From Phenylobacterium glaciei (lineage in GTDB: Bacteria; Pseudomonadota; Alphaproteobacteria; Caulobacterales; Caulobacteraceae): a stretch of DNA of 64,000 bases. Positions within the stretch are counted from its first letter, which is position 1. Each line of letters starts with the position of its first letter. The stretch spans positions 124,001-188,000 of the forward strand of contig NZ_JAGSGD010000001.1 in assembly GCF_016772415.1 (NCBI RefSeq), read 5' to 3'. The translations under genes and the position numbers were made by a program. The notes below the pieces were generated by a model. It did not search any database. It saw only the letters and a list, made by a program, of their open reading frames with translations, and was not told the DNA's origin. Positions 24,507 to 39,004 of this stretch are shown piece after piece.

Positions 24507-24554
24507 GAGCCTGTTCATCCGCTTCAGGTGAAGTCATCTGAAGCGGACAGGCTC
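24507..24554. repeat. Inverted repeat at the 3' end of parB
   Basis: GAGCCTGT (24507-24514) pairs with ACAGGCTC (24547-24554), and CCGCTTCAG (24519-24527) with CTGAAGCGG (24538-24546), leaving a four-base bulge and a ten-base loop. It abuts the parB stop codon. Without a T-run it is not a classical intrinsic terminator but may stabilise the mRNA 3' end. Confidence 0.7.
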
Positions 24555-25426
24555 TACGCGCGAGTGAGGCGACGGCAGACCTCGTCCAGCTGTTCGAGGC
24601 TGGCGTACTTCACCCGCAGCTCGCCGACCCCGCCCTTGTCGATCACCTCGACGGTCAAGCCGAGCGCCTCCGACAGGTCAACCTCGAGCGCCTGGGTGTC
24701 GGTGTCCTTCGCAGGCTTGGACGCCGACACCTTGGGCGCCGCGCCGCCGCTCGATTCCTTGCGGACCAGCGATTCGGTGTCGCGCACCGACAGACCCTTG
24801 GCGATGACCAGGTCGGCGAGGGCCAGGGGGTCGGCGGCGCCGAGCAGGGCGCGCGCGTGGCCCGCGGTGATCTTGCTCTCCATCAGGTAGTGCCTGACGG
24901 GATCGGGTAGGGCCAGCAGGCGAACCAGGTTGGCCACGTGGCTGCGGCTCTTGCCGACCGCGTCGGCCACCTCGGCGGCGCTGCGGCCGTGGACCTCCAC
25001 CAGCTGCTGGTAGGCATTGGCCTCTTCAATGGGGTTCAGCGCCGTGCGCTGGACGTTCTCGATGACGCCGATCTCGAGCACCTGGATATCGTCCAGCTCG
25101 CGGACCAGGGCCGGCAGCACATGCAGGCCAGCTTTCTGGCTGGCGCGCCAGCGGCGCTCCCCGGCGACGATCTCGAAATGGCCGTCCCTGTCGGGCGCGG
25201 GCCGCACCAGGATGGGCTGCAGAACGCCCTTGATGCGGATCGAGGCGGCCAGCTCCTCGATCTCGTCTTCCGAAAACACCCAGCGGGGCTGCTTCTCGTT
25301 GCGATGGATCAGCTCGATGGGGATGTCGCGCAGGCCGCCGGCCACGCCCGCGTCCACCGGCGTTTCTTCGACCTCACCCAGCAGGGCCGACAGCCCCCGG
25401 CCCAGTCCGCGTTTCTCGACCATCAT
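24554..25426 (-). CDS. parB: Chromosome-partitioning protein ParB
   Basis: A 290-residue CTP-dependent DNA clamp that loads at parS and spreads to build the partition complex. The N-terminal box KRGLGRGLSALLGE contacts ParA. The CTP-binding ParB/Srx domain has VLQPILVRP and EIVAGERRWRASQKAG (GERRxRA box near residue 90) and NVQRTALNPIEEA. The central HTH (GRSAAEVADAVGKSRSHVANLVRLL) recognises parS. The last 40 residues form the dimerisation domain (VKYASLEQLDEVCRRL). GAGGA lies five bases before ATG 25426; ATG 25423 is equally possible. It is downstream of parA with a 7-bp gap. Candidate parS sites are at 27370, 28808, 29002 and 32745. Confidence 0.98.
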   Translation of the reverse strand: MMVEKRGLGRGLSALLGEVEETPVDAGVAGGLRDIPIELIHRNEKQPRWVFSEDEIEELAASIRIKGVLQPILVRPAPDRDGHFEIVAGERRWRASQKAGLHVLPALVRELDDIQVLEIGVIENVQRTALNPIEEANAYQQLVEVHGRSAAEVADAVGKSRSHVANLVRLLALPDPVRHYLMESKITAGHARALLGAADPLALADLVIAKGLSVRDTESLVRKESSGGAAPKVSASKPAKDTDTQALEVDLSEALGLTVEVIDKGGVGELRVKYASLEQLDEVCRRLTRA

Positions 25427-25433
25427 GTTTTCC

Positions 25434-26252
25434 TCAGGCGGCTTGGGCGCGGCGGTCGCGTTCGCGCACCACCACTTCGCGGGCCAGCTTCAGATAGGCC
25501 TGGCTGCCCGCGCACTTCAGATCATAGACCAGCACCGGCTTGCCGAAGCTGGGCGCCTCCGACACCCGCACATTGCGCGGGATCACCGTGGCGTAGACCG
25601 TGCCGCCGAAGTGGGCGCGCACATCCTTGGCCACCTGTTCCGACAGGCTGTTGCGCCGGTCGTACATGGTCAGCACCACCCCCTGGATTTCCAGGTTCGG
25701 ATTGAGGCTGCCCCGAACCAGCTCAATGGTGCGCACCAGCTGGCTGAGGCCTTCGAGCGCAAAGAACTCGCACTGCAGGGGCACCAGCACCGCGTCCGAC
25801 GCCGCCATCGCGTTGACCGTCAGCAGGTTCAGCGACGGCGGGCAGTCGATCAGCACATAGGTATAGGCGCCCGACTGGCGGATCGGATCGATGGCGTCGC
25901 GCAGCTTGAAGGAGCGCCGCGCCTGCTGGCCCAGCTCCAGTTCGACGCCGGACAGGTCGGCGTGGGCCGGGACGATGTCCAGGCCGGGCAGGGCGGTTTC
26001 CACGATGGCGTCGGCGAGGGGCGCGTCGCCCATCAACACGTCATAGAGGGTGATCTTGCGCTTCGAATGCGGGATGCCGAGGCCGGTCGACGCGTTGCCC
26101 TGCGGATCGGAATCGATCAGCAGCACGCGCTCGCCGACGGCGGCGAGCGCCGTGCCCAGGTTGATGGCCGTCGTGGTCTTGCCCACGCCGCCCTTCTGGT
26201 TGGCGACCACCAGGACGCGGAGCGCCCGATGCGGTTTCTGATCAGCGGCCAC
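25434..26252 (-). CDS. parA: Chromosome-partitioning ATPase ParA
   Basis: A 272-residue Walker-type ATPase that binds nucleoid DNA as an ATP dimer and pulls ParB-parS complexes apart. The deviant Walker A motif KGGVGKTT (residues 20-27) carries the signature lysine. Walker A' is VLLIDSDPQGNAST, Walker B YVLIDCPPSLNLLTVNAM, with LTMYDRRNSLSEQV and NVRVSEAPSFGKPV following. The GTG at 26250-26252 is used as start because it yields the family N-terminus; the first 11 bases overlap the end of rsmG, implying translational coupling in an mnmG-rsmG-parA-parB operon. Confidence 0.98.
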   Translation of the reverse strand: MAADQKPHRALRVLVVANQKGGVGKTTTAINLGTALAAVGERVLLIDSDPQGNASTGLGIPHSKRKITLYDVLMGDAPLADAIVETALPGLDIVPAHADLSGVELELGQQARRSFKLRDAIDPIRQSGAYTYVLIDCPPSLNLLTVNAMAASDAVLVPLQCEFFALEGLSQLVRTIELVRGSLNPNLEIQGVVLTMYDRRNSLSEQVAKDVRAHFGGTVYATVIPRNVRVSEAPSFGKPVLVYDLKCAGSQAYLKLAREVVVRERDRRAQAA

Positions 26253-26898: not shown

Positions 26899-28748
26899 CA
26901 GGCGGCCCGCCGGCGGACGTGGGCCAGCAGGGCGGTGAGCGCGCCCGGCGTCACGCCTTCGATCCGCGCGGCTTGGCCGAGCGTCAGAGGCCGGATGGCC
27001 GTCAGCTTGTCGCGCACCTCATTGGAGAGGCTACCCACCCGCGAATAGTCCAGTTCGGGGGGCAGGCGCAGGTTCTCGTCGCGGCGGAAGGCGGCCACGT
27101 CGGCGTCCTGGCGGTCCAGATAGCCGGAGTAGGCGGCGTCGATCTCCACCTGCTCGCGGACCTGGGGGTCCCAGGCGGCGATCTCAGGCCAGATGACGGC
27201 CAGATTCTCGAAGGAGATGGTGGGATAGGCCAGCAGCTGGGTCAGGTCGCGGCGCTGGCCGTCGGCCTTGACCGGCAGGCCCGCCTTGGCGGCCTTGTCG
27301 GGGGTCAGGGTCAGCTCGGCGGCGCGGCCGCGCGCGGCGGCCAGGGCCGCAGCCTTTGAATTGAAGGCGGTTTCACGTGAAACACCGACGCAGCCCAGGG
27401 CCATGCCCTTGGCGGTCAGCCGCTGGTCGGCATTGTCGGCGCGCAGGGTCAGGCGGAATTCGGCGCGGCTGGTGAACATCCGATAGGGCTCGGTGACGCC
27501 CCGGGTCACCAGGTCGTCGATCATCACCCCGATATAGGCCTCGTCGCGGCCGAAGATGGCGGGCTCGGCGCCAGACGCGGACCGGGCCGCGTTCAGCCCA
27601 GCCACCAAGCCCTGCGCCGCCGCCTCCTCATAGCCGGTGGTGCCGTTGATCTGGCCGGCCAGGTAGAGGCCCGGCAGGCGCTTGACCTCGAGCGTCGCCG
27701 AAAGCTCGCGCGGATCGACATAGTCGTACTCGATCGCATAGCCGTGGCGTCGGACCTGGACGTTCTCGAGGCCGACGATGGTGCGCAGGAACAGGTCCTG
27801 GGTCTGCGGTGAGACGGACGTGGAGATGCCGTTGGGATAGACGGTGTCGTCGTCCAGGCCCTCGGGCTCCAGGAAGATCTGGTGCGCCGTCTTGTCGGCA
27901 AAGCGGACCACCTTGTCCTCAATGGAGGGGCAGTAGCGGGGCCCGCGGCCATTGATCCGGCCGCCATAGACCGCCGACTCGTTCAGCCGCTCGGCGATGA
28001 TCCGATGCGTTTCAGCATTGGTGTAGGTGACCCCGCAGGCGATCTGCGGCGTGGTGATCTTGGTCGTGAGGAAGGAGAAGGGGGAGGGGACCTCGTCGGC
28101 CGCCTGCATCTCCAGCTTTTCCCAGGCGATGGTGGAGGCCACCAGACGGGCCGGGGTGCCGGTCTTCAGGCGGCCCATGTCGAGGCCGAGCGCATAGAGC
28201 CGGTCGGAAAGCCCGATGGCCGGCGCCTCGCCCACCCGGCCGGCGGGGAGGCGCTGTTCGCCCTGGTGAATGACGCCCTTCAGGAAGGTGCCGGTGGTCA
28301 GGACAACGCGCCCGGCGGAATAGATTTCACCGCTTGCCCCAACCACGCCGGTGACCTTGCCGTCCACCACCAGCAGGTCCTCGACGGCTTCGGCCTTCAG
28401 GGTCAGGTTCGGGGTGGCGGCCAACTCGGCCTGCATGGCCTGCCGATAGAGCTTGCGGTCGATCTGCGCCCGGGGCCCGCGCACGGCGGCGCCCTTGGAG
28501 CGGTTCAGCAGCCGGAACTGGATGCCGGCCACATCGGCGAGCCGGCCCATGACCCCATCCAGGGCGTCGATCTCGCGCACCAGGTGGCCCTTGCCCAGGC
28601 CGCCGATGGCCGGATTGCAGGACATCTCGCCGATGGTGTCGAGCTTGTGGGTCAGCAGCAGGGTCCGCGCGCCAAACCGCGCCGAAGCCGCCGCGGCTTC
28701 ACAGCCCGCATGGCCGCCGCCGATGATGATCACGTCCCAGGAGGTCAC
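26898..28748 (-). CDS. mnmG: tRNA uridine-5-carboxymethylaminomethyl modification enzyme MnmG (GidA)
   Basis: A 616-residue FAD enzyme that with MnmE modifies wobble uridine 34 in tRNAs. The N-terminal FAD motif is [22 protein letters not shown]. The signature [24 protein letters not shown] and the second signature [18 protein letters not shown] are present, as is a C-terminal MnmE-binding helical domain ending in [10 protein letters not shown]. No ATG fits the family start; GTG 28746-28748 (VTSWDVII) has GCGGAG seven bases upstream and is chosen. A perfect 14-bp parS palindrome lies inside the gene at 27370-27383, coding Gly-Val-Ser-Arg-Glu-Thr. Confidence 0.97.
27370..27383. other. parS site 1 (inside mnmG)
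   Basis: GTTTCACGTGAAAC is a perfect palindrome; extended to 16 bases (27369-27384) it matches the ParB consensus TGTTTCACGTGAAACA at 15 positions. It is about 1.9 kb from parB. Confidence 0.9.
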
Positions 28749-28807
28749 GCCAAACTCCGCTTCCACCCCATATGGGCGGGGGGTTCCTATAGCGGAAGGC
28801 GGGGGGC

Positions 28808-28821
28808 GTTTCACGTGAAAG
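28808..28821. other. parS site 2 (upstream of mnmG)
   Basis: GTTTCACGTGAAAG: one half is perfect, and the 16-mer matches the consensus at 14 of 16 positions. It lies 60 bp before the mnmG start codon, so bound ParB might affect mnmG-rsmG-parAB transcription (inference). Confidence 0.8.
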
Positions 28822-28850
28822 AGTCTTACCGGAGACGGCGGAGACTAGCG

Positions 28851-28982
28851 TCCCTCTCCCCATTCATGGGGAGAGGGTAGGGTGAGGGGCGTGCAGCAGC
28901 GCTGCGCAATGCTGAGGTTGTGAGCTGCCGAACCTCAGAATGAGCCCTCACCCTACCCTCTCCCACAAGTGGGAGAGGGGCG
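28851..28982. repeat. Palindromic repeat, family C (copy 2)
   Basis: It has GGGGAGAGGGTAGGGTGAGGGG and its complement CCCTCACCCTACCCTCTCCC on either side of about 60 bp, with a secondary inner pair (CTGAGGTT/AACCTCAG). It sits between two parS sites in the mnmE-mnmG gap. Confidence 0.85.
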
Positions 28983-29001
28983 TTAGCCCGGCGCCCTGCC
29001 C

Positions 29002-29017
29002 TGTTCCACGTGAAACA
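29002..29017. other. parS site 3 (mnmE 3' end)
   Basis: TGTTCCACGTGAAACA matches the 16-base ParB consensus at 15 positions. It lies just outside the mnmE stop codon. Confidence 0.88.
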
Positions 29018-29019
29018 CC

Positions 29020-30354
29020 TTATTTTCCAATGCAGAAGGTGGCGAACACGCGGTCGAGGACGTCCTCCGGGTCAATACGGCCGGTGATGCGATCCAGGGA
29101 CCGGCCCGCCAGCCGAACGTCCTCCGCGGCGAGCTCCGGAGAGCCCTCCACGACGAGTGCGTGCTCCAACCGGGCCAGGGCCTCGGCGAGCAAGTCTTTG
29201 TGACGCAGGCGTGTGGCGGTCGGCAGCTCGTCGCCGGCGAGGCGCTGGACCACCTGGTCGGTAAGGGCCGCCAGGATCACCCCCACGTGGGTGGCGTCCC
29301 GGGCGCTGATGCGGTGCATTTCAAGCTCAAGAGCCCGGGCCTCCAAGAGCGCCCGCCCCGTATCATCGCCCGGCGGCAGGTCCGACTTGTTGATCACGCA
29401 GAGATCGCCGGCGGTGAGTTCCTCCGGCGGCGGGTCGATGGCCGAGGACGAGCCGTCCACCAGCCAGATCCGCAGGTCCGCGCTGGACGCCCAGGCCCGC
29501 GCGCGGCGCACACCCTCGGCCTCGATCTCGTCGTGGGTGTCGCGCAGTCCGGCGGTATCGGCCAGCAGCACCTTGTAGCCCGCCAGGCGCATGGGAACCT
29601 CGATGACGTCCCGTGTGGTGCCCGGGGTGGCCGTGACGATGGCGGCCTCGCGACCGGCCAGCCCATTCAGCAGGGTGGACTTTCCGGCGTTGGGGGCGCC
29701 CACCAGGGCGATGCGGAAGCCGTCGCGGATCCGCTCGCCACGATCCACATCCGCCAGGGCCAGGTGGAGCTCGCCGATGAGCCGCTGCAGATGGGGCCGG
29801 GCCCGGTCGGCGACCTCAGCGGGCACCTCCTCGTCGGGAAAGTCCACCGCGGCCTCGAAATTGGCTGAGGCCTCGATCAGATCGGCGCGCCAGCGCAGGT
29901 GGGCGCGGCCCAGCGCGCCGCCCACCTGGGCCAGGGCCTGGCGGCGCTGGGCCTCGGTCTCGGCCTCGATGAGGTCTGCGACGCCTTCGGCCTGAGCCAG
30001 GTCAAGCTTGCCGTTCTCGAAGGCGCGGCGGGTGAATTCCCCAGGCTCGGCGAGGCGCAGACCCAGGGCGGCCAGGGCCTCAAGCAGGGCCGAGACCACG
30101 GCCGGGCCGCCATGCACGTGAAACTCGGCGCTATCCTCGCCGGTATAGCTCCCAGGACCGGGGAACCAGAGCACCAGGGCCTGGTCGATGGGGCCGCTGT
30201 CAGATTGCAGGGTCCGCAGGCCCGCCACCCGAGGGCGCGGGACCTTGCCGGCCAAGGCTCTTACAGCCGCCCGAGCGCGCGGCCCCGACACCCGGACGAC
30301 CGCCACGGCCGCGCGGCCGGCGGCGGTGGCGGCGGCATAGATGGTGTCGGTCAT
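29020..30354 (-). CDS. mnmE: tRNA modification GTPase MnmE (TrmE)
   Basis: A 444-residue GTPase partner of MnmG in U34 modification. The N-terminal tetrahydrofolate-binding domain starts [21 protein letters not shown] and includes [18 protein letters not shown] helical domain with an inserted G domain follows: P-loop [15 protein letters not shown] near residue 220, switch region [18 protein letters not shown], and NKSD. The C-terminal FCIGK ending is the invariant catalytic CIGK motif. Its ATG overlaps the TGA of the upstream DUF6489 gene (ATGA). A degenerate CACGTGAAAC half-site at 30115-30124 lies inside it, but this is too poor to call parS. Confidence 0.98.
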
Positions 30355-30605
30355 TTCGGGCGGTTGGCGCCGCCCATGCCCATGTCGACCGCTGTGGACA
30401 TCAGCTTGCGGAACTGTTCCTGGGCGCCGACCCCGAAGGCGGTCCAGTTCTTCATCAGCTCGTCGGGGGACAGCATGTTGATGTTGCTCTCCATCCGCTT
30501 CTGCATCTCCTCCACCAGCTTGTCGTTCAAGGCGGTGACGTCGGGCAGGCCCATGAAGCTGCGCGCCTCGACGGGGGTGCAATCAATCTCGATGGTCATC
30601 TTCAT
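30351..30605 (-). CDS. DUF6489 family small protein
   Basis: An 84-residue soluble protein, [20 protein letters not shown] at the N-terminus, then a helical middle ([20 protein letters not shown]) and [18 protein letters not shown] recognise it as the DUF6489 type found upstream of mnmE in many alphaproteobacteria; its function is unknown. The helical, amphipathic character resembles small phasin-like or tRNA-modification accessory proteins, without proof. Its stop codon overlaps the mnmE start by four bases (ATGA), so it is translationally coupled to mnmE. Confidence 0.82.
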
Positions 30606-30657
30606 GGCAGGGCCCTTCCTCAAGCAATAGTTATGGCCGGTTGCGGCCACTGCGCGC

Positions 30658-30708
30658 TAGAGCGCGATAGCCGAAAGTGGTCTTCCGGTTTCGACGGACA
30701 TCGCGCGA
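30658..30708. repeat. Palindromic repeat, family D (copy 3)
   Basis: TAGAGCGCGATAGCCGAAAGTGG...CCGGTTTCGACGGACATCGCGCGA, nearly identical to the copy at 19279. It lies between the DUF6489 gene and the divergent hydrolase. Confidence 0.8.
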
Positions 30709-30781
30709 CCCATATGAATACAGGCGGGACGCCTTAGCGTTCCTCCTGTAGCCAACGCATAGCAAGACAAACGGAGGCCCC

Positions 30782-31480
30782 ATGCCTAGCGAAACCATCA
30801 CCCTTAAGACCGAGGACGGTGACTTCACCGCCTATGTGGCGCGGCCCTCCAAGGACAAGGCCCCGGCGATCGTGGTCATCCAGGAGATCTTCGGGGTCAA
30901 TGCGGTGATGCGCGAGATCGCCGACGGCCTGGCCGACCAGGGATACCTCGCCATCTGTCCCGACCTGTTCTGGCGGATCGAGCCCGGGATCGACATCACC
31001 GACAAGTCCGAGGCCGAGTGGAAAAAGGCCTTCGAGCTGTTCAACGCTTTCGACGCCGACGCCGGCGTCAAGGACATCGCCGCGGTGATCGATCACATCC
31101 GTGCCGATCCCGGCTGCTCGGGCAAGGTCGGCGCGGTGGGCTACTGCCTGGGGGGCCTGCTGGCCTTCCTGACCGCCACCCGCACCGACGCCGACGCCAG
31201 CGTCGGCTATTACGGCGTGGGCATCGAGAGCCGGGTCGGAGAGGTCGAGAAGCTGGAGCGGCCGCTGATGCTGCATATCGCCGAAGAGGACCAGTTCGTC
31301 CCCAAGGAGGCCCAGGCCATCATCCTGCAGGCCCTGAAGAACCACGCCCAGGTCACCGCCTACACCTATCCCGGCTGCGACCACGCCTTTGCCCGCCACG
31401 GCGGCGAGCACTTCGATGAGGCCGCCGCCAAGCTGGCCAACGGCCGCAGCCTGACTTTCTTCCAGCAACACCTCGCCTAG
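30782..31480 (+). CDS. Dienelactone hydrolase family protein (cytosolic)
   Basis: A 232-residue alpha/beta hydrolase of the carboxymethylenebutenolidase family, without a signal peptide. The nucleophile is the Cys in GAVGYCLGGLLAFL, the conserved glutamate strand is IQEIFGVNAVMREIAD, the acid lies in HIAEEDQFVP and the histidine in YPGCDHAFARHGG. Length matches bacterial DLH (about 235 aa). GGAGGCCCC precedes the ATG. It is followed after 11 bp by a quinone oxidoreductase in the same direction. This is the second family member in the window and, unlike the one at 4413, it is cytosolic. The substrate is unknown. Confidence 0.92.
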   Translation: MPSETITLKTEDGDFTAYVARPSKDKAPAIVVIQEIFGVNAVMREIADGLADQGYLAICPDLFWRIEPGIDITDKSEAEWKKAFELFNAFDADAGVKDIAAVIDHIRADPGCSGKVGAVGYCLGGLLAFLTATRTDADASVGYYGVGIESRVGEVEKLERPLMLHIAEEDQFVPKEAQAIILQALKNHAQVTAYTYPGCDHAFARHGGEHFDEAAAKLANGRSLTFFQQHLA

Positions 31481-31491
31481 GGATTACATTG

Positions 31492-32463
31492 ATGCGCGCC
31501 ATCCAGATCGACGCCACCGGCGGTCCCGACGTCCTGAAGCTGGTGGAGGTCCCGGCCCCCGAGCCCAAGCCCGGCCAGATTCTGATCCGCAACCAGGCCA
31601 TCGGCCTGAACTTCATCGACACCTATCACCGCTCCGGCCTCTATCCGCTGAAGCTGCCGTCGGGCCTGGGCATGGAAGGCGCGGGCGTCGTCGAGGCCGT
31701 GGGGGAGGGGGTCACCCGCTTTTCCGTCGGCGATCTGGCCGCCTACGCCTCGGGACCGATCGGCGCCTATGCCGAGCTGCACGCGGTCAACGCCGAGCGC
31801 GCAGTCAAGCCGCCGGCTGGGATCGACGCCCAGGTCGCCGCCGGGGCCCTGCTGAAGGGGATGACGGCGGAGTTCCTGCTGCGCCGCTGCTATGCGGTGA
31901 AGGCCGGCGACCATATCCTGGTTCATGCCGCCGCGGGCGGGGTGGGCTCGATCCTGGTGCAATGGGGTAAGGCGCTGGGCGCCGTGGTCATCGCCACCGC
32001 CGGGTCACAGGATAAGGCCGAGCGGGCCAGGTCGCTGGGCGCCGACCACGTCATCCTCTACCGCGACGCCGACGTCGCCGCCGAGGTCCGCAGAATCACC
32101 AACGGGGCAGGCGTGCCGGTGGCCTACGACTCTGTGGGCGCCGCCACCTTCGAAGGCACGCTCGCGAGCCTGGCCAAGCGCGGCCTGTTTGTCAGCTTCG
32201 GCAACGCCTCGGGACCGCCGCCGGCCATCGCGCCGGCGCGGCTGATGCAGGCGGGCTCGGTCTTCCTCACCCGGCCGACCATGGGCGACTACCTGCTCAC
32301 CACCGCCGAGCTGGACGCGTCGGCCGCCGCCCTGTTCGAGGTGATCAAGTCGGGCAAGGTGAAGATCGACATCGGCCAGACCTTCCCGCTCGCAGAGGCC
32401 CGCAAGGCGCACGAGGCGATGGAAGGCCGCGACACGGTCGGAGCGAGTTTGCTGATTCCGTAG
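31492..32463 (+). CDS. Quinone oxidoreductase / MDR-family zinc-independent reductase
   Basis: A 323-residue NADPH:quinone reductase of the medium-chain dehydrogenase superfamily. The catalytic fold starts MRAIQIDATGGPDVLKLVEV. The quinone-reductase signature GLNFIDTYHRSGLYPLKLPSGLGMEGAGVV is present, and the nucleotide-binding loop is HAAAGGVGSILVQWGKALGA. It lacks the structural and catalytic zinc cysteines of alcohol dehydrogenases, as expected of QOR. ATG 31492 is preferred; a TTG lies at 31489. It is probably co-transcribed with the upstream hydrolase (11-bp gap). The role is electron transfer to quinones or reduction of alpha,beta-unsaturated carbonyls. Confidence 0.93.
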   Translation: MRAIQIDATGGPDVLKLVEVPAPEPKPGQILIRNQAIGLNFIDTYHRSGLYPLKLPSGLGMEGAGVVEAVGEGVTRFSVGDLAAYASGPIGAYAELHAVNAERAVKPPAGIDAQVAAGALLKGMTAEFLLRRCYAVKAGDHILVHAAAGGVGSILVQWGKALGAVVIATAGSQDKAERARSLGADHVILYRDADVAAEVRRITNGAGVPVAYDSVGAATFEGTLASLAKRGLFVSFGNASGPPPAIAPARLMQAGSVFLTRPTMGDYLLTTAELDASAAALFEVIKSGKVKIDIGQTFPLAEARKAHEAMEGRDTVGASLLIP

Positions 32464-32485
32464 GACTGTGGGGCGGGGAGGGCCC

Positions 32486-32627
32486 AGCCCCCTCCGTCTC
32501 GGCTTCGCCGATCCACCTCCCCCCGATCGCGCTTCGCGCTGGGGGAGGAATGAGGCGTTCCTCCCCCAGGCCGCAGGCCGTGTCGGGGGAGGTGGCGCGC
32601 ACCGCAGGTGCGTGACGGAGGGGGCTA
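32486..32627. repeat. Palindromic repeat, family B (copy 2)
   Basis: Outer arms AGCCCCCTCCGTC and GACGGAGGGGGCT enclose two inner GGGGGAGGAA/TTCCTCCCCC hairpins. It occupies the gap between convergent qor and the methyltransferase gene, and resembles 13473-13616. Confidence 0.85.
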
Positions 32628-32638
32628 GGGCCTCTCCG

Positions 32639-33424
32639 TCAGACCTCCCGCTTCCAGCCCCAGGCCTGGGTGATCCGCGGCAGGCTCATGAAGACCGACG
32701 GGTCATCCCGCGCCTTCACGAGGTCGGAGATGTAATCGACCAGGGTTTCACGTGAAACACCCATGGATTCAACAGCTTCGGAGATTCCAGCCAGGGTCAG
32801 CGCCGCCATGGCCTTGACCGGACCCGTCAGGGCCGCCGGCTGCACCATCCGGGCCTCAATGCCGATGAACCCGGCGCGGCCGAGGAAGGCCGGCAGCTTG
32901 GGGCCGATCTCCGGGTCCGCGCCGCGCTTGTGGGCTGAAGCGACGTACCACTGCACGAAGTGCCGGAAGCTGGCCCGGGTCGGCTCGCAGATGTGGGCGG
33001 AAAACTCCACGTCCTCCACCACCAGCAGGCCGTCGGGGACCAGGGCGCGCTCGAAAACCGCCACGGCGTCTGCCGGCCTTGTCAGATGGGAGAGCAGGAA
33101 GCGAGCATAGATGACGTCGAAGGGGCCGAGGTGCTCGGCGCGCTCATAGCCGCCCACCTGGAACGCGACATTGGCCGGCGAATCCTGGGCCGCCATGGAG
33201 ATCTTGATCTCGTCGAGGTCCAGGCCGATCACCTGGCCCGAGGTCCGCGACGCCAGCTCGCGGGTCACGTCGCCCCCACCGCAACCGACATCCAGAATGC
33301 GGGCGCCGGCAGGGATGCCCACCCGGTCGAGCAGGCTGCCCGTCGCCTCGGCCATGGCCTGGGACAGGACCGAGAGCCGCGCGGCCCCGGCCATCCCGCC
33401 GGAGATGATGTAGCTCTCGCTCAC
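32639..33424 (-). CDS. Class I SAM-dependent methyltransferase
   Basis: A 261-residue Rossmann methyltransferase. Motif I is ARILDVGCGGGDVTRELASR, the acidic loop IGLDLDEIKISMA binds the ribose, and VIYARFLLSHLTRPADAV is motif IV. The remaining C-terminal half (HFVQWYVASAHKRGADPE onward) resembles ubiquinone/menaquinone-type or small-molecule methyltransferases; the substrate cannot be predicted. It lies downstream of rho on the same strand with a 22-bp gap. A perfect parS core (32745-32758) is embedded in the coding sequence and reads Gly-Val-Ser-Arg-Glu-Thr, the same peptide as the parS inside mnmG. Confidence 0.88.
   Translation of the reverse strand: MSESYIISGGMAGAARLSVLSQAMAEATGSLLDRVGIPAGARILDVGCGGGDVTRELASRTSGQVIGLDLDEIKISMAAQDSPANVAFQVGGYERAEHLGPFDVIYARFLLSHLTRPADAVAVFERALVPDGLLVVEDVEFSAHICEPTRASFRHFVQWYVASAHKRGADPEIGPKLPAFLGRAGFIGIEARMVQPAALTGPVKAMAALTLAGISEAVESMGVSRETLVDYISDLVKARDDPSVFMSLPRITQAWGWKREV
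32745..32758. other. parS site 4 (inside the methyltransferase gene)
   Basis: GTTTCACGTGAAAC, a perfect 14-bp palindrome (15 of 16 to the extended consensus, 32744-32759). It is the origin-proximal member of the cluster, about 5.1 kb from the CtrA boxes of the origin. Confidence 0.9.
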
Positions 33425-35577: not shown

Positions 35578-36612
35578 TCAGGTTCCCTTTACAGACCGGC
35601 CGCACTTGCCATAGCGGGCCGGGCAAAGCCATGCCCCCTCCGGCGCGGCCCCGCCGGCCCGCGCCAGGGCGTGGTCGACGGTGTCGACAAGGGCCGTGAT
35701 GAAGGCCTGTTCGACCCCCAGCGCCGGGGCACGCAGATAGGGGGCCACCCCCTGTTGCACCGCCAGCTCGGCATATTCGTGGTCCAGCTCCACCAGGGTC
35801 TCTATGTGTTCGGAGACGAAGGCGATCGGCGTGATCAGCAGGCCCACCCCCTGTTCGCCGGCCACGTGGATCTCATCGACCGTGGAGGGGCCGATCCATT
35901 TCAGTGGGCCCACCCGGCTCTGATAGCAGACACGCCAGTCGGTGAGCTCGGGGACCTGGGCGGCCACCGCAGCGGCCGTGGCCTCGATCTGCGCCTGGTA
36001 GGGGTCGCCACCCGCGATCACCTTCTCGGGCAGGCCGTGGGCGGAGAACAGCAGGCGGACATTGGCGGGCTTTCCGGCCTTCACCCAGGTGTCGCGGATG
36101 GCGGTGGCGTGGCCCTCCACAACCCCCTTGGCGGTGGGATAGCAGCAGACGGTGCGGGCGCGGCCGGGGCCCTTATAGGCCTTGGCCCAGTCCTGCAGGG
36201 ACGAGGCGGTGGTGGTGGTGGAGTACTGGGGATAGAGCGGCAGCAGGACGATCTCGTCGGGGGCGAAAGCCGCCACCTCCTGGGCCGTCTGGTCAGCGAA
36301 GGGCTTCCAATAGCGCATGGCGATGAAGGACTTCACGGTCAGGTCGGGCCGGGCCACGGCGAGCGCGGCATCCAGGGCCGCGGCCTGCTTCTGCGTCTCC
36401 GGCAGCAGGGGCGAGGCGCCGCCCATGATGTTGTAGTTGGCCTGGGCGGAGGTCTCGCGACGCGAAGAGATCAGGGCGGCGAGCGGATAGCGCAGGATCG
36501 CTGGCACGCTGATGATCGCCGGGTCCTTGAACAGGTTGTACAGGAACGGCCGCACGGCGTCCGGGCCATCCGGACCGCCAAGGTTGAACAGGACGACGGC
36601 GACGCGGCTCAT
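35578..36612 (-). CDS. hemH: Ferrochelatase
   Basis: A 344-residue enzyme that inserts iron into protoporphyrin IX, the last step of haem synthesis. It begins MSRVAVVLFNLGGPDGPDAV. The catalytic His lies in LLFSAHGLPEKVIAGGDPY, the Glu in ITPIAFVSEHIETLVELDHEY, and the conserved YQSRVGPLKWIGPST segment is present. ATG 36612 overlaps the hemE stop by four bases (ATGA). The C-terminus retains CPARYGKCGRS cysteines, as in cluster-type ferrochelatases, although a [2Fe-2S] cluster is not certain. Confidence 0.97.
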   Translation of the reverse strand: MSRVAVVLFNLGGPDGPDAVRPFLYNLFKDPAIISVPAILRYPLAALISSRRETSAQANYNIMGGASPLLPETQKQAAALDAALAVARPDLTVKSFIAMRYWKPFADQTAQEVAAFAPDEIVLLPLYPQYSTTTTASSLQDWAKAYKGPGRARTVCCYPTAKGVVEGHATAIRDTWVKAGKPANVRLLFSAHGLPEKVIAGGDPYQAQIEATAAAVAAQVPELTDWRVCYQSRVGPLKWIGPSTVDEIHVAGEQGVGLLITPIAFVSEHIETLVELDHEYAELAVQQGVAPYLRAPALGVEQAFITALVDTVDHALARAGGAAPEGAWLCPARYGKCGRSVKGT

Positions 36613-37640
36613 TTGCCGGTCACCCGGCGGATCGTGCGCTCGATATGCTCGATGGGGGTGTCGGGCAGGACGCCATGGCCGAGGTTGAAGATGTAGGGGC
36701 CGGAGTTCCACTGCTCGATCAGAGCGTCGACCCGGGCGTCCAGCGCCGGGCCGCCGGCCCGCAGCAGCAGGTTGTCGAGCGCGCCCTGGATGGTCTTGCC
36801 GCTGTCCTGGATCTTCTGGCCAAGGACAGCCGGGGCCTGGGTGTCGAGGGCGACGCAGTTGACCGGCACGCGGGCGGCATAGTTCTCCACGAGGGCCCCG
36901 GCGCTGCGCGGGAAGCCGATGAAGGGCACGTCCACGCCGGCGGCGCGGACCTTCTCGATGATGGCGGTGTGCGGTTTGATGACGATGCGTTCGAAGACAT
37001 CCTCGGCCAGGCCTTCCGCCCAGCTTTCGAACAGCTTCAGCACCTGGGCGCCGGACTTCGCCTGCATCACCAGGTAGCGGGCGGTGGCGTCCACCAACAC
37101 CTCAAGCAGCCGGTCCAGCTTCTCCGGATGCTGGTAGGCATAGGTCCGGGCCCCGGAGCGGTCGGAGCCGCGGCCTTCGATCATGTAGGTGGCCACGGTC
37201 CAGGGGGCGCCGGCGAAGCCGATCAGGGCGCGGTCCGGCTCCAGCTCGGCGCGGACCCGGGAGAGCGTCTCGCCGATGGCCGAAAGGCGGCCGGTGGAGG
37301 CCTCGATCTGGTCAGCCATGCTTTCGATGGAGGGCAGTTCGCCGAGCCTCGGCCCCTCGCCCGTCTCGAACCAGACTTCCTGGCCCAGCGCCTGGGGGAT
37401 CAGCAGGATGTCGGCGAAGACGATGGCGGCGTCCAGGGGGAAGCGGCGCATCGGCTGCATCGTAGCCTCGGCGGCCATCTCCGGATTGTGGCAGAAGGCG
37501 ATGAAGTCCTTGGCCCGGGTTCGCAGCTCCCGGTACTCGGGCAGGGAGCGTCCCGCCTGACGCATGAACCAGACCGGCGGGCGATCCAGGGTTTCTCCGG
37601 CAAGCGCCCGGAGCAGGCGGGGTTCTGAACTGTTCGGCAT
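36609..37640 (-). CDS. hemE: Uroporphyrinogen decarboxylase
   Basis: A 343-residue cytosolic enzyme that decarboxylates uroporphyrinogen III to coproporphyrinogen III. The signature PPVWFMRQAGRSLPEYRELR is at the N-terminus, with the substrate Asp in DAAIVFADILLIPQALG, GFAGAPWTVATYMIEG in the middle and FNLGHGVLPDTPIEHIERT at the C-terminus. ATG 37640 matches the family start. In Caulobacter crescentus hemE is the gene flanking the replication origin, and its promoter lies inside the origin; the same arrangement is seen here, with hemE reading away from the 515-bp intergenic region. Confidence 0.98.
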   Translation of the reverse strand: MPNSSEPRLLRALAGETLDRPPVWFMRQAGRSLPEYRELRTRAKDFIAFCHNPEMAAEATMQPMRRFPLDAAIVFADILLIPQALGQEVWFETGEGPRLGELPSIESMADQIEASTGRLSAIGETLSRVRAELEPDRALIGFAGAPWTVATYMIEGRGSDRSGARTYAYQHPEKLDRLLEVLVDATARYLVMQAKSGAQVLKLFESWAEGLAEDVFERIVIKPHTAIIEKVRAAGVDVPFIGFPRSAGALVENYAARVPVNCVALDTQAPAVLGQKIQDSGKTIQGALDNLLLRAGGPALDARVDALIEQWNSGPYIFNLGHGVLPDTPIEHIERTIRRVTGK

Positions 37641-37845
37641 GGACGGCGTTAAACCGGCTTCGGGCTCCAACCTCAAGCCCGCCTGTTCTTCCCGACTGCC
37701 CTTCTACCTTTCTAAGAAATAGAATCTTGGATGAAGAGGTAGCGGTAGGGCCTGGGCAAGCCGGGGACAAAGCCCGGTGTCGCACCCCGCATCGACTCCC
37801 TTTCCCCAGGAGACGCCACCTTCATCCGCAGGCCAGCGGCCACGC

Positions 37846-37854
37846 TGTGGATTG
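37846..37854. promoter_or_regulatory. DnaA-box-like site in the origin
   Basis: TGTGGATTG is the complement of CAATCCACA, seven of nine to TTATCCACA with an intact TCCACA core. It is immediately followed by the first CtrA box, so DnaA and CtrA could compete for this stretch. Confidence 0.55.
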
Positions 37855-37856
37855 TG

Positions 37857-37871
37857 TTAATAGAGTCTTAA
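37857..37871. promoter_or_regulatory. CtrA box 1 with embedded CcrM site
   Basis: TTAA-TAGAGTC-TTAA is a perfect TTAA-N7-TTAA CtrA box. Its spacer contains GAGTC (37863-37867), a GANTC methylation site. Confidence 0.85.
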
Positions 37872-37885
37872 CGTGCTGATCGGCC

Positions 37886-37900
37886 TTAACGATTCATTAA
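37886..37900. promoter_or_regulatory. CtrA box 2 with embedded CcrM site
   Basis: TTAA-CGATTCA-TTAA is a second perfect CtrA box, 29 bp after the first. Its spacer contains GATTC (37891-37895), again a GANTC site. Confidence 0.85.
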
Positions 37901-38155
37901 CCTCAAGGCCCCGCTCGGGGTGAACGAACAGGAGTCGTTCGCCGCCGCCCCCGGTTTGGGGTTGGCGCGTCCACGCCGCAGGGACAGACGGCGGGCGAGC
38001 CCGACTCAAACACCCCGAAGGGCGCCCGCTATCCCCGGCCCGCCGGATTGGCGCGGGAAATGGCCGCAGTTCTCCCCAAGCGCGCGCAGCTTCGCTAAGA
38101 AGGTATCGACTCCTCTGTCCCCAGATATTTCGACGCACCAGCGTTTCGAGACCCC

Positions 38156-39004
38156 ATGACCTCAGCCTCGCGCTACGCCACCTATTTCCATGTGCACCTG
38201 GTCTCCGACTCCACCGGCGAGACCCTCAACGCCATGGCCCGCGCCGTCTGCGCCCGGTTCGAGAATGTCCTGCCCATCGAGCACATCTACGCCCTGGTCC
38301 GCTCGCCCCGGCAGCTGGAGCGGGCGCTCACCGATATCGAGGCCGCGCCGGGCGTGGTGATCCACACCATCGTCGATGACGAGCTGCGGGCGGCCCTGGA
38401 AGAGGGCTGCCGTAAGCTGGACATGGCCTGCATCCCGGCGCTCGACCCGCTGGTCTCGGCCCTGTCGCGCTATCTGGGCGCGGCCCTGACCCGGCGGGTG
38501 GGGGTGCAGCACGCCCTGGACAATGACTATTTCAACCGCATGGACGCGCTGAACTACGCGATCGGCCACGACGACGGCCAGGGCGGCCAGGACCTGGACC
38601 AGGCCGATGTGGTGCTGGTGGGGGTCTCGCGGACGTCGAAGACGCCCACCTGCATCTATCTGGCCCACCGCGGGGTCCGCGCCGCCAATGTGCCCCTGGT
38701 GCCGGGGCGGCCGCCGACCGAAAAGCTGCTGACCCTGAAGAACGCCCTGATCGTCGGCCTGACCATCTCCCCCGACCGGCTGATCCAGATCCGCCGCAAC
38801 CGGCTTCTGAGCCTCAAGGAAGACCGCGACTCCAGCTATATCGATATCGAGGCGGTCCGCGAGGAGACGGTGCTGGCCCGCCGGCTGTATGAGCGGATGG
38901 AATGGCCGGTGATCGACGTCACCCGCCGCAGCGTCGAGGAGACGGCCGCCGCGGTGCTGAACCTGCTGAACGGCGGCCACGGCCAGATCGAGGTGCTGGG
39001 ATGA
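38156..39004 (+). CDS. ppsR: Pyruvate,phosphate dikinase / PEP synthase regulatory protein (kinase-pyrophosphorylase)
   Basis: A 282-residue bifunctional ADP/Pi-dependent regulator of the DUF299 family that switches PEP synthase or PPDK on and off by threonine phosphorylation. Marks: FHVHLVSDSTGETLNAMARA at the start and a central P-loop LVGVSRTSKTPTCIYLAHRG. DNDYFNRMDALNYAIGHDDGQ lies in the middle, and RNRLLSLKEDRDSSYIDIEAVREE near the C-terminus. In C. crescentus this gene (RP001) borders the origin opposite hemE. It opens a cluster ppsR-maf-aroE-coaE-dnaQ in which the first three genes overlap by ATGA junctions. ATG 38156 follows the origin directly. Confidence 0.96.
   Translation: MTSASRYATYFHVHLVSDSTGETLNAMARAVCARFENVLPIEHIYALVRSPRQLERALTDIEAAPGVVIHTIVDDELRAALEEGCRKLDMACIPALDPLVSALSRYLGAALTRRVGVQHALDNDYFNRMDALNYAIGHDDGQGGQDLDQADVVLVGVSRTSKTPTCIYLAHRGVRAANVPLVPGRPPTEKLLTLKNALIVGLTISPDRLIQIRRNRLLSLKEDRDSSYIDIEAVREETVLARRLYERMEWPVIDVTRRSVEETAAAVLNLLNGGHGQIEVLG

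Follow-up and report, generated by a model that had tools for sequence, protein, structure and literature searches.

The window analysed here, a 64-kb stretch of Phenylobacterium DNA (positions 1-64000), contains in the gap between hemE and a ppsR-type gene what is very probably a normal Phenylobacterium chromosome-replication origin with two perfect CtrA boxes. Alignment with related origins shows one of these, box 1, to be a recent replacement of the second slot of a conserved DnaA-box-like pair, itself a likely docking site for DnaA. Each box encloses a GANTC site, and these spacer GANTCs are real but come and go in evolution.

The gap is 515 bp long and separates divergent genes. The features that bear on the identity of the origin are:

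37641 to 38155, no strand: hemE-ppsR intergenic region, very probably a Cori-type chromosomal replication origin (flanks, octamer switch, nearby parS, family-wide layout)
36609 to 37640, minus strand: hemE, uroporphyrinogen decarboxylase (TIGR01464 above cut-off)
38156 to 39004, plus strand: ppsR-type gene, PEP-synthase / pyruvate phosphate dikinase regulator (NF003742 above cut-off)
24554 to 26252, minus strand: parB and a ParA-type gene (ParB domain TIGR00180 above cut-off; ParA/MinD-type matches below cut-offs)
27370 to 32758, no strand: parS sites GTTTCACGTGAAAC, perfect at 27370 and 32745 and with one mismatch at 28808 and 29003

On the hemE side rsmG, mnmG, mnmE and rho (all above cut-off) lie between the parB/ParA-type gene and hemE, and the four perfect or one-mismatch parS sites span 5.4 kb in the neighbourhood of mnmG and mnmE. 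The parAB genes and parS are 5-13 kb from the gap, and parABS falls within about 15 kb. The C. crescentus origin, Cori, likewise has hemE and ppsR flanks, CtrA boxes that adjoin or overlap DnaA boxes, and GANTC sites, and it shares parAB-rsmG-mnmG-mnmE-rho on its hemE side, which we take to be the C. crescentus gene order. The four named loci nearest by ppsR protein are Phenylobacterium (97-98 %).

GC skew, one of the checks put forward with the original prediction, was weak and noisy in 40 genome samples and proved uninformative on origin position, neither supporting nor opposing an origin here, so we used in its place the strand bias of the octamer GGGNAGGG, presumably the FtsK-orienting KOPS of E. 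coli. Over the whole genome this octamer occurs in 667 and 629 copies on the two strands versus 399 and 413 for its reversed control. Its forward:reverse ratio is 25:4 over the 158 kb to the right of the gap and 25:37 over the 162 kb to the left (Fisher 4e-5), while on the sampled arms it is 45:14 versus 9:33 with the opposite switch at C1 2.25-2.35 Mb (Fisher 6e-8, which is optimistic, the cut having been picked for maximal contrast). Strand bias, with a local resolution of tens of kb, places the origin to that accuracy and the gene context places it in the gap; the origin proposed at 37641-38155 is thus borne out by its hemE and ppsR flanks, by parS and by the octamer strand switch. The A+T content of 60-bp windows in the origin region peaks at 58 % at position 37841, over the CtrA boxes. 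The genome encodes GcrA, DnaA, one CtrA above the curated cut-off and a 363-aa N6/N4-type DNA methylase with a RAMA domain, a layout which we take to be that of CcrM.

Two CtrA boxes and a tandem pair of DnaA-box-like slots lie within the gap:

37857 to 37871, plus strand: CtrA box 1 (TTAATAGAGTCTTAA), lineage-specific, its alignment column common to 5 origins only (clade support 99)
37886 to 37900, plus strand: CtrA box 2 (TTAACGATTCATTAA), orthologous to the box shared across the family, of which 69 of 147 origins have a perfect copy
37846 to 37854, minus strand: E1, first slot of the tandem DnaA-box-like pair, TGTGGATTG (CAATCCACA on the minus strand), with 2 mismatches to TTATCCACA
37855 to 37863, minus strand: E2, second slot of the pair, here TGTTAATAG, overlapping CtrA box 1; TTAA in 5 of 146 aligned origins

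Both boxes are perfect TTAA-N7-TTAA motifs at a pitch of 29 bp and TGTGGATTG directly precedes box 1; boxes, spacers, pitch and adjacent DnaA-box-like element had all been predicted exactly. The intergenic region contains no near-miss CtrA boxes (≤ 2 mismatches in the eight fixed bases) beyond the two perfect ones, whereas C. crescentus Cori has five full CtrA boxes. CtrA-box matches with at most one mismatch number 4 in the 64-kb window compared with 0.46 expected from shuffles. Perfect boxes number 11 genome-wide, and a GANTC within the spacer is found only in box 1 and box 2. Against the two G-boxes and weak W-boxes expected of a Cori-type origin, one DnaA-box-like 9-mer, E1, was identified here, the E2 slot being occupied by box 1.

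For comparison we extracted hemE-ppsR gaps from 194 of 200 loci, dropping 6 without a detectable hemE, and collapsed 35 identical intergenic sequences to obtain 159 distinct gaps; the alignment comprises 147 origins, 12 of the 159 having been removed as members of other families of the order. The Phenylobacterium-side set (80 origins) includes records named Caulobacter or only Caulobacteraceae, Caulobacterales, Alphaproteobacteria or similar. The Caulobacter-like set is a non-random choice of 40 places picked from the best-scoring matches, giving 37 distinct aligned origins of presumed genus, and the Brevundimonas-like set, its genus also presumed, is the best 30 of 41 genomes. Around box 2 the Brevundimonas-like origins align poorly; their E1 and E2 scores and their share (29) of the 141 origins outside the clade of the window mean little. 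The ppsR tree has 78 rows, as two Phenylobacterium-side origins (L030 and L103) were omitted for their short ppsR matches.

Most relatives have TGTGRATxx and, immediately after it, CGGGGAxxx, two tandem 9-mers resembling DnaA boxes that would, to judge from this resemblance, be bound by DnaA. Across the 75 other Phenylobacterium-side origins E1 opens with TGTG at 99-100 % per base, and E2, with the consensus CGGGGAxxx, has GGG at positions 2-4 in 69. In the clade of the window E2 instead reads TGTTAATxx or TGTTAACxx, giving the left half-site of box 1: TTAA is present at E2 in 5 of 5 clade members versus 0 of 141 other aligned origins, 29 of them the poorly aligned Brevundimonas-like ones. Box 1 aligns only with the four closest relatives of the window (L031-L034), and the replacement is one evolutionary event, not five. 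The presumed Caulobacter origins differ in that 19 of 37 carry the TTAA on the first slot, E1, an arrangement found in 1 of the 75 other Phenylobacterium-side origins. An alternative alignment, with TGTTAAT as the first slot followed by a 9-bp insertion, was ruled out by the constant distance from E1 to box 2, which is 40 bp in 5 of 5 clade origins and 38-40 bp in 70 of the 75 others (40 bp in 30, and 38 or 39 bp in 40 of the remaining 45). When each slot is compared with whichever of two DnaA-box forms it resembles more, the replaced slot of the five clade members has 3-4 mismatches and E2 of the relatives has 1 to 4 in 73 of 75; the clade is not much worse than many of them, and its slot may still bind DnaA.

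The placement of CtrA half-sites on E1 or E2 fits the published view of CtrA over the G-boxes: the accessible part of a review describes both Cori G-boxes as targeted through proximity to or overlap with CtrA sites, CtrA excluding DnaA, and holds that some marine Caulobacter probably came to use CtrA at their origins independently, with DnaA exclusion as the simplest mechanism (PMC4468827). In the open-access literature we found no report of such a replacement, nor of an origin with two CtrA boxes that each enclose a GANTC, although older Cori papers may discuss related points.

From this layout we infer CtrA and DnaA binding, competition and shielding at the origin, and with moderate confidence favour the following account of a Caulobacter-type origin. 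Phosphorylated CtrA on both boxes would bar DnaA from the adjoining pair until CtrA is removed. Box 2 is the inherited CtrA site, and box 1 a recent one, made in a small Phenylobacterium clade over the second DnaA-box slot, so that the two proteins would be rivals for one set of bases. The spacer GANTCs would mostly be by-products of the letters common in this box's spacer, often ..TTC[GA], in an origin with many GANTCs. Should they have a function, the likelier direction is that CtrA bound late in the cycle shields them from CcrM and leaves them under-methylated, and such shielding would be a possible, and testable, side effect of the lineage-specific box.

The GANTC sites of the gap are:

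37722 to 37726, no strand: GANTC (GAATC), in 4 of 4 closest relatives
37794 to 37798, no strand: GANTC (GACTC), in 1 of 4 closest relatives
37863 to 37867, no strand: GANTC (GAGTC) in the box 1 spacer; no other of the 147 origins has a GANTC in this column
37891 to 37895, no strand: GANTC (GATTC) in the box 2 spacer, conserved throughout the clade (5 of 5); 23 of 147 origins have a GANTC in this column
37932 to 37936, no strand: GANTC (GAGTC) outside the boxes, shared with 3 of 4 closest relatives; with 29 of 147 origins, the commonest of the seven columns
38003 to 38007, no strand: GANTC (GACTC), in 2 of 4 closest relatives
38108 to 38112, no strand: GANTC (GACTC), in 3 of 4 closest relatives

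The presence of GAGTC and GATTC in the two box spacers agrees with the prediction, as does the count of seven sites within some 390 bp (37722 to 38112, 391 bp). About one site had been expected by chance; sampled genome stretches contain 1.3 GANTC per kb, so the expectation for 391 bp is about 0.5. The Phenylobacterium-side origin region as a whole has about 5 GANTC per kb. All four closest relatives share the sites at 37722 and 37891; each of the other five is present in 0 to 3 of them. At this locus the 80 Phenylobacterium-side origins have a mean of 2.8 GANTCs, with seven or more in 2 of 80 including the window. Stretches of 391 bp with at least seven GANTCs occur at three places in the 626 kb examined of the 4.24-Mb genome, namely the origin, a stretch flanking dnaA at its 3′ end and the region upstream of a flagellin gene, so the origin cluster is rare, not unique.

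Over the window as a whole GANTC is strongly depleted, with 90 sites versus 262 in dinucleotide shuffles. Next to dnaA, 9 GANTCs fall in about 390 bp at L256:8180-8572 (C1 about 268180-268572), in the interval separating the 3′ end of a polynucleotide-phosphorylase gene from that of dnaA, and L256:9987-10463 (C1 about 269987-270463) has 6, one within the 5′ part of dnaA and five upstream. A further 9 GANTCs fall in about 150 bp just upstream of the flagellin gene (Flagellin_N) at L163:8426-8578 (C1 about 2758426-2758578). Tandem repeats were considered as a cause of the dnaA-side and flagellin clusters and no repeats were found. Two loci from another family of the order (L019 and L020) have hemE-ppsR gaps of about 340 bp with 9 GANTCs each, denser than in the window; their ppsR match (G018 and G022, one genus-level group) contains one TGA, perhaps a stop near the end.

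The cluster could serve transcription, through GcrA/CcrM-dependent promoters of hemE, ppsR or a CcnA-like origin RNA, the overlap with the CtrA boxes then being secondary. GcrA acts at promoters with methylated GANTC according to the accessible text of PMC3973325, C. crescentus Cori yields the RNA CcnA from a CtrA-box promoter (PMC8959179), and the other dense clusters of this genome lie beside dnaA and upstream of flagellin. However, GANTC number ranges from 0 to 8 among the 147 origins, a promoter scan of 37600-38200, covering the sigma-70 type only, found no sigma-70-type promoter, and a search of 37400-38400 for Rfam families of an origin RNA gave no match up to E = 1. We regard a primarily transcriptional role as quite unlikely.

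The original prediction further held that GANTC placement within the spacers makes CtrA binding methylation-sensitive, methylation altering CtrA affinity so that late-cycle CcrM activity times repression of the origin. A GANTC within both boxes, the observation behind this reading, distinguishes the window from C. crescentus Cori and is found in the window's genome alone among the 147 origins. The four closest relatives argue against it, since all of them keep box 1 with the spacer TGAAGTC (three) or CGAAGTC (one) and none has the GANTC, which is thus present in 1 of the 5 origins that have box 1. The box 2 GANTC is more favourable in being kept across the clade, as GATTC in 5 of 5, but only 17 of 47 perfect orthologues on the Phenylobacterium side have it and, in the presumed Caulobacter set, 0 of 22. 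On the ppsR tree its state changes at least 11 times among 46 perfect boxes, 29 of which lack GANTC; when it is scored against all other tree rows, well-supported branches require a minimum of 8 gains or losses. Even so, like states group together on the tree, with 11 changes versus a shuffled mean of 15.6 and none of 500 shuffles as low. Column shuffling leads to an expected 13.0 +/- 2.0 box 2 GANTCs, 0.036 of shuffles reaching 17 or more with kinship ignored, and this control fixes column letters which selection for GANTC could itself have shaped. The proposed alignment of hemE-ppsR gaps therefore upholds conservation of a spacer GANTC for box 2 within the clade, with a clustered state beyond it, goes against it in part for box 2 across the genus and does not bear it out for box 1.

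Among 731 perfect boxes in 81 Phenylobacterium genomes, 15 (in 14 genomes) have a spacer GANTC and all 15 lie at origins, about 240-300 bp upstream of ppsR (the G393 case takes the contig as circular), which counts in favour of control of CtrA by methylation. There are about 1.3 perfect boxes per Phenylobacterium-side origin (101 in 80), so origins hold an estimated one in seven of the 731, and confinement by chance is unlikely, even when the relatedness of the genomes is taken into account. The simplest explanation lies in the spacers at origins: these often have TTC[GA] at the end, a sequence one or two changes away from GANTC, and the region around them is rich in GANTC. The confinement of all 15 is also the reason to take seriously a further reading, in which Phenylobacterium origins would repeatedly gain GANTCs in CtrA boxes since shielding from CcrM by CtrA is useful; here both boxes would be marked and one would lie on a DnaA-box slot, leaving a 15-bp site contested by DnaA, CtrA and CcrM. 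We think this elaboration unlikely.

Published work bears on the direction of any interplay between CtrA and CcrM. The accessible part of PMC3973325 reports that overproduction of CcrM in C. crescentus leads to extra chromosome copies, as methylation control of the origin might predict, but also that replication remains efficient without CcrM and that the CtrA and DnaA consensus sites are unlike GANTC; methylation sensing by CtrA activity is left open there. The same text already notes GANTCs within the C. crescentus origin and describes origin-near GANTCs as hemimethylated in about 80 % of cells. The only direct experiment that we found, that of Ardissone 2016, used a synthetic promoter with three GANTCs, one inside each of its two CtrA boxes and the third between these; it was only partially methylated in wild type, the direction demonstrated being that CtrA blocks CcrM methylation and not that methylation blocks CtrA (PMC5172544). 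That promoter was on an engineered plasmid with a third GANTC between the boxes, whereas the window has a natural origin with none between. A comparable overlap can be read from the accessible part of PMC4287350 for the P2 promoter in CCNA_00876 of C. crescentus, where a CtrA motif starting at -39 and a GANTC at -35 would put the GANTC inside the motif; it differs in being an imperfect TTAC-N7-TTCA at a promoter and not at an origin. We found no measurement of CtrA binding to methylated boxes in the open-access literature searched, as far as its texts were accessible. With the box 1 GANTC in 0 of 4 relatives, that of box 2 labile and the precedent running the opposite way, the predicted methylation sensitivity of CtrA binding is unsupported; we consider it very unlikely, and methylation controlling CtrA less likely than CtrA shielding GANTC. 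The slot replacement is the more solid of the two proposals.

Shielding could itself be the selected function, CtrA in predivisional and swarmer cells keeping the GANTCs hemi- or unmethylated and so leaving a mark of recent CtrA binding to be read later by, for example, GcrA, DnaA or another protein. The synthetic promoter is a direct precedent, with a GANTC in each of two CtrA boxes in the accessible text (PMC5172544), and both the double marking, seen in one of 147 origins, and the presence of the box 2 GANTC throughout the clade agree with such a switch. The box 1 GANTC, found in a single genome, and the lability of the box 2 GANTC across the genus do not, and we know of no reader protein for such an under-methylated mark. 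A selected switch appears rather unlikely to us.

The spacer GANTCs offer a way to ask, in a natural setting, whether occupancy by CtrA leaves its record at an origin in the form of local under-methylation. The slot replacement provides a before-and-after case, in which related species have either a DnaA-box-like slot or a CtrA half-site at the same nine bases with constant spacing, so that trade-offs between CtrA and DnaA could be tested by swapping a short stretch.
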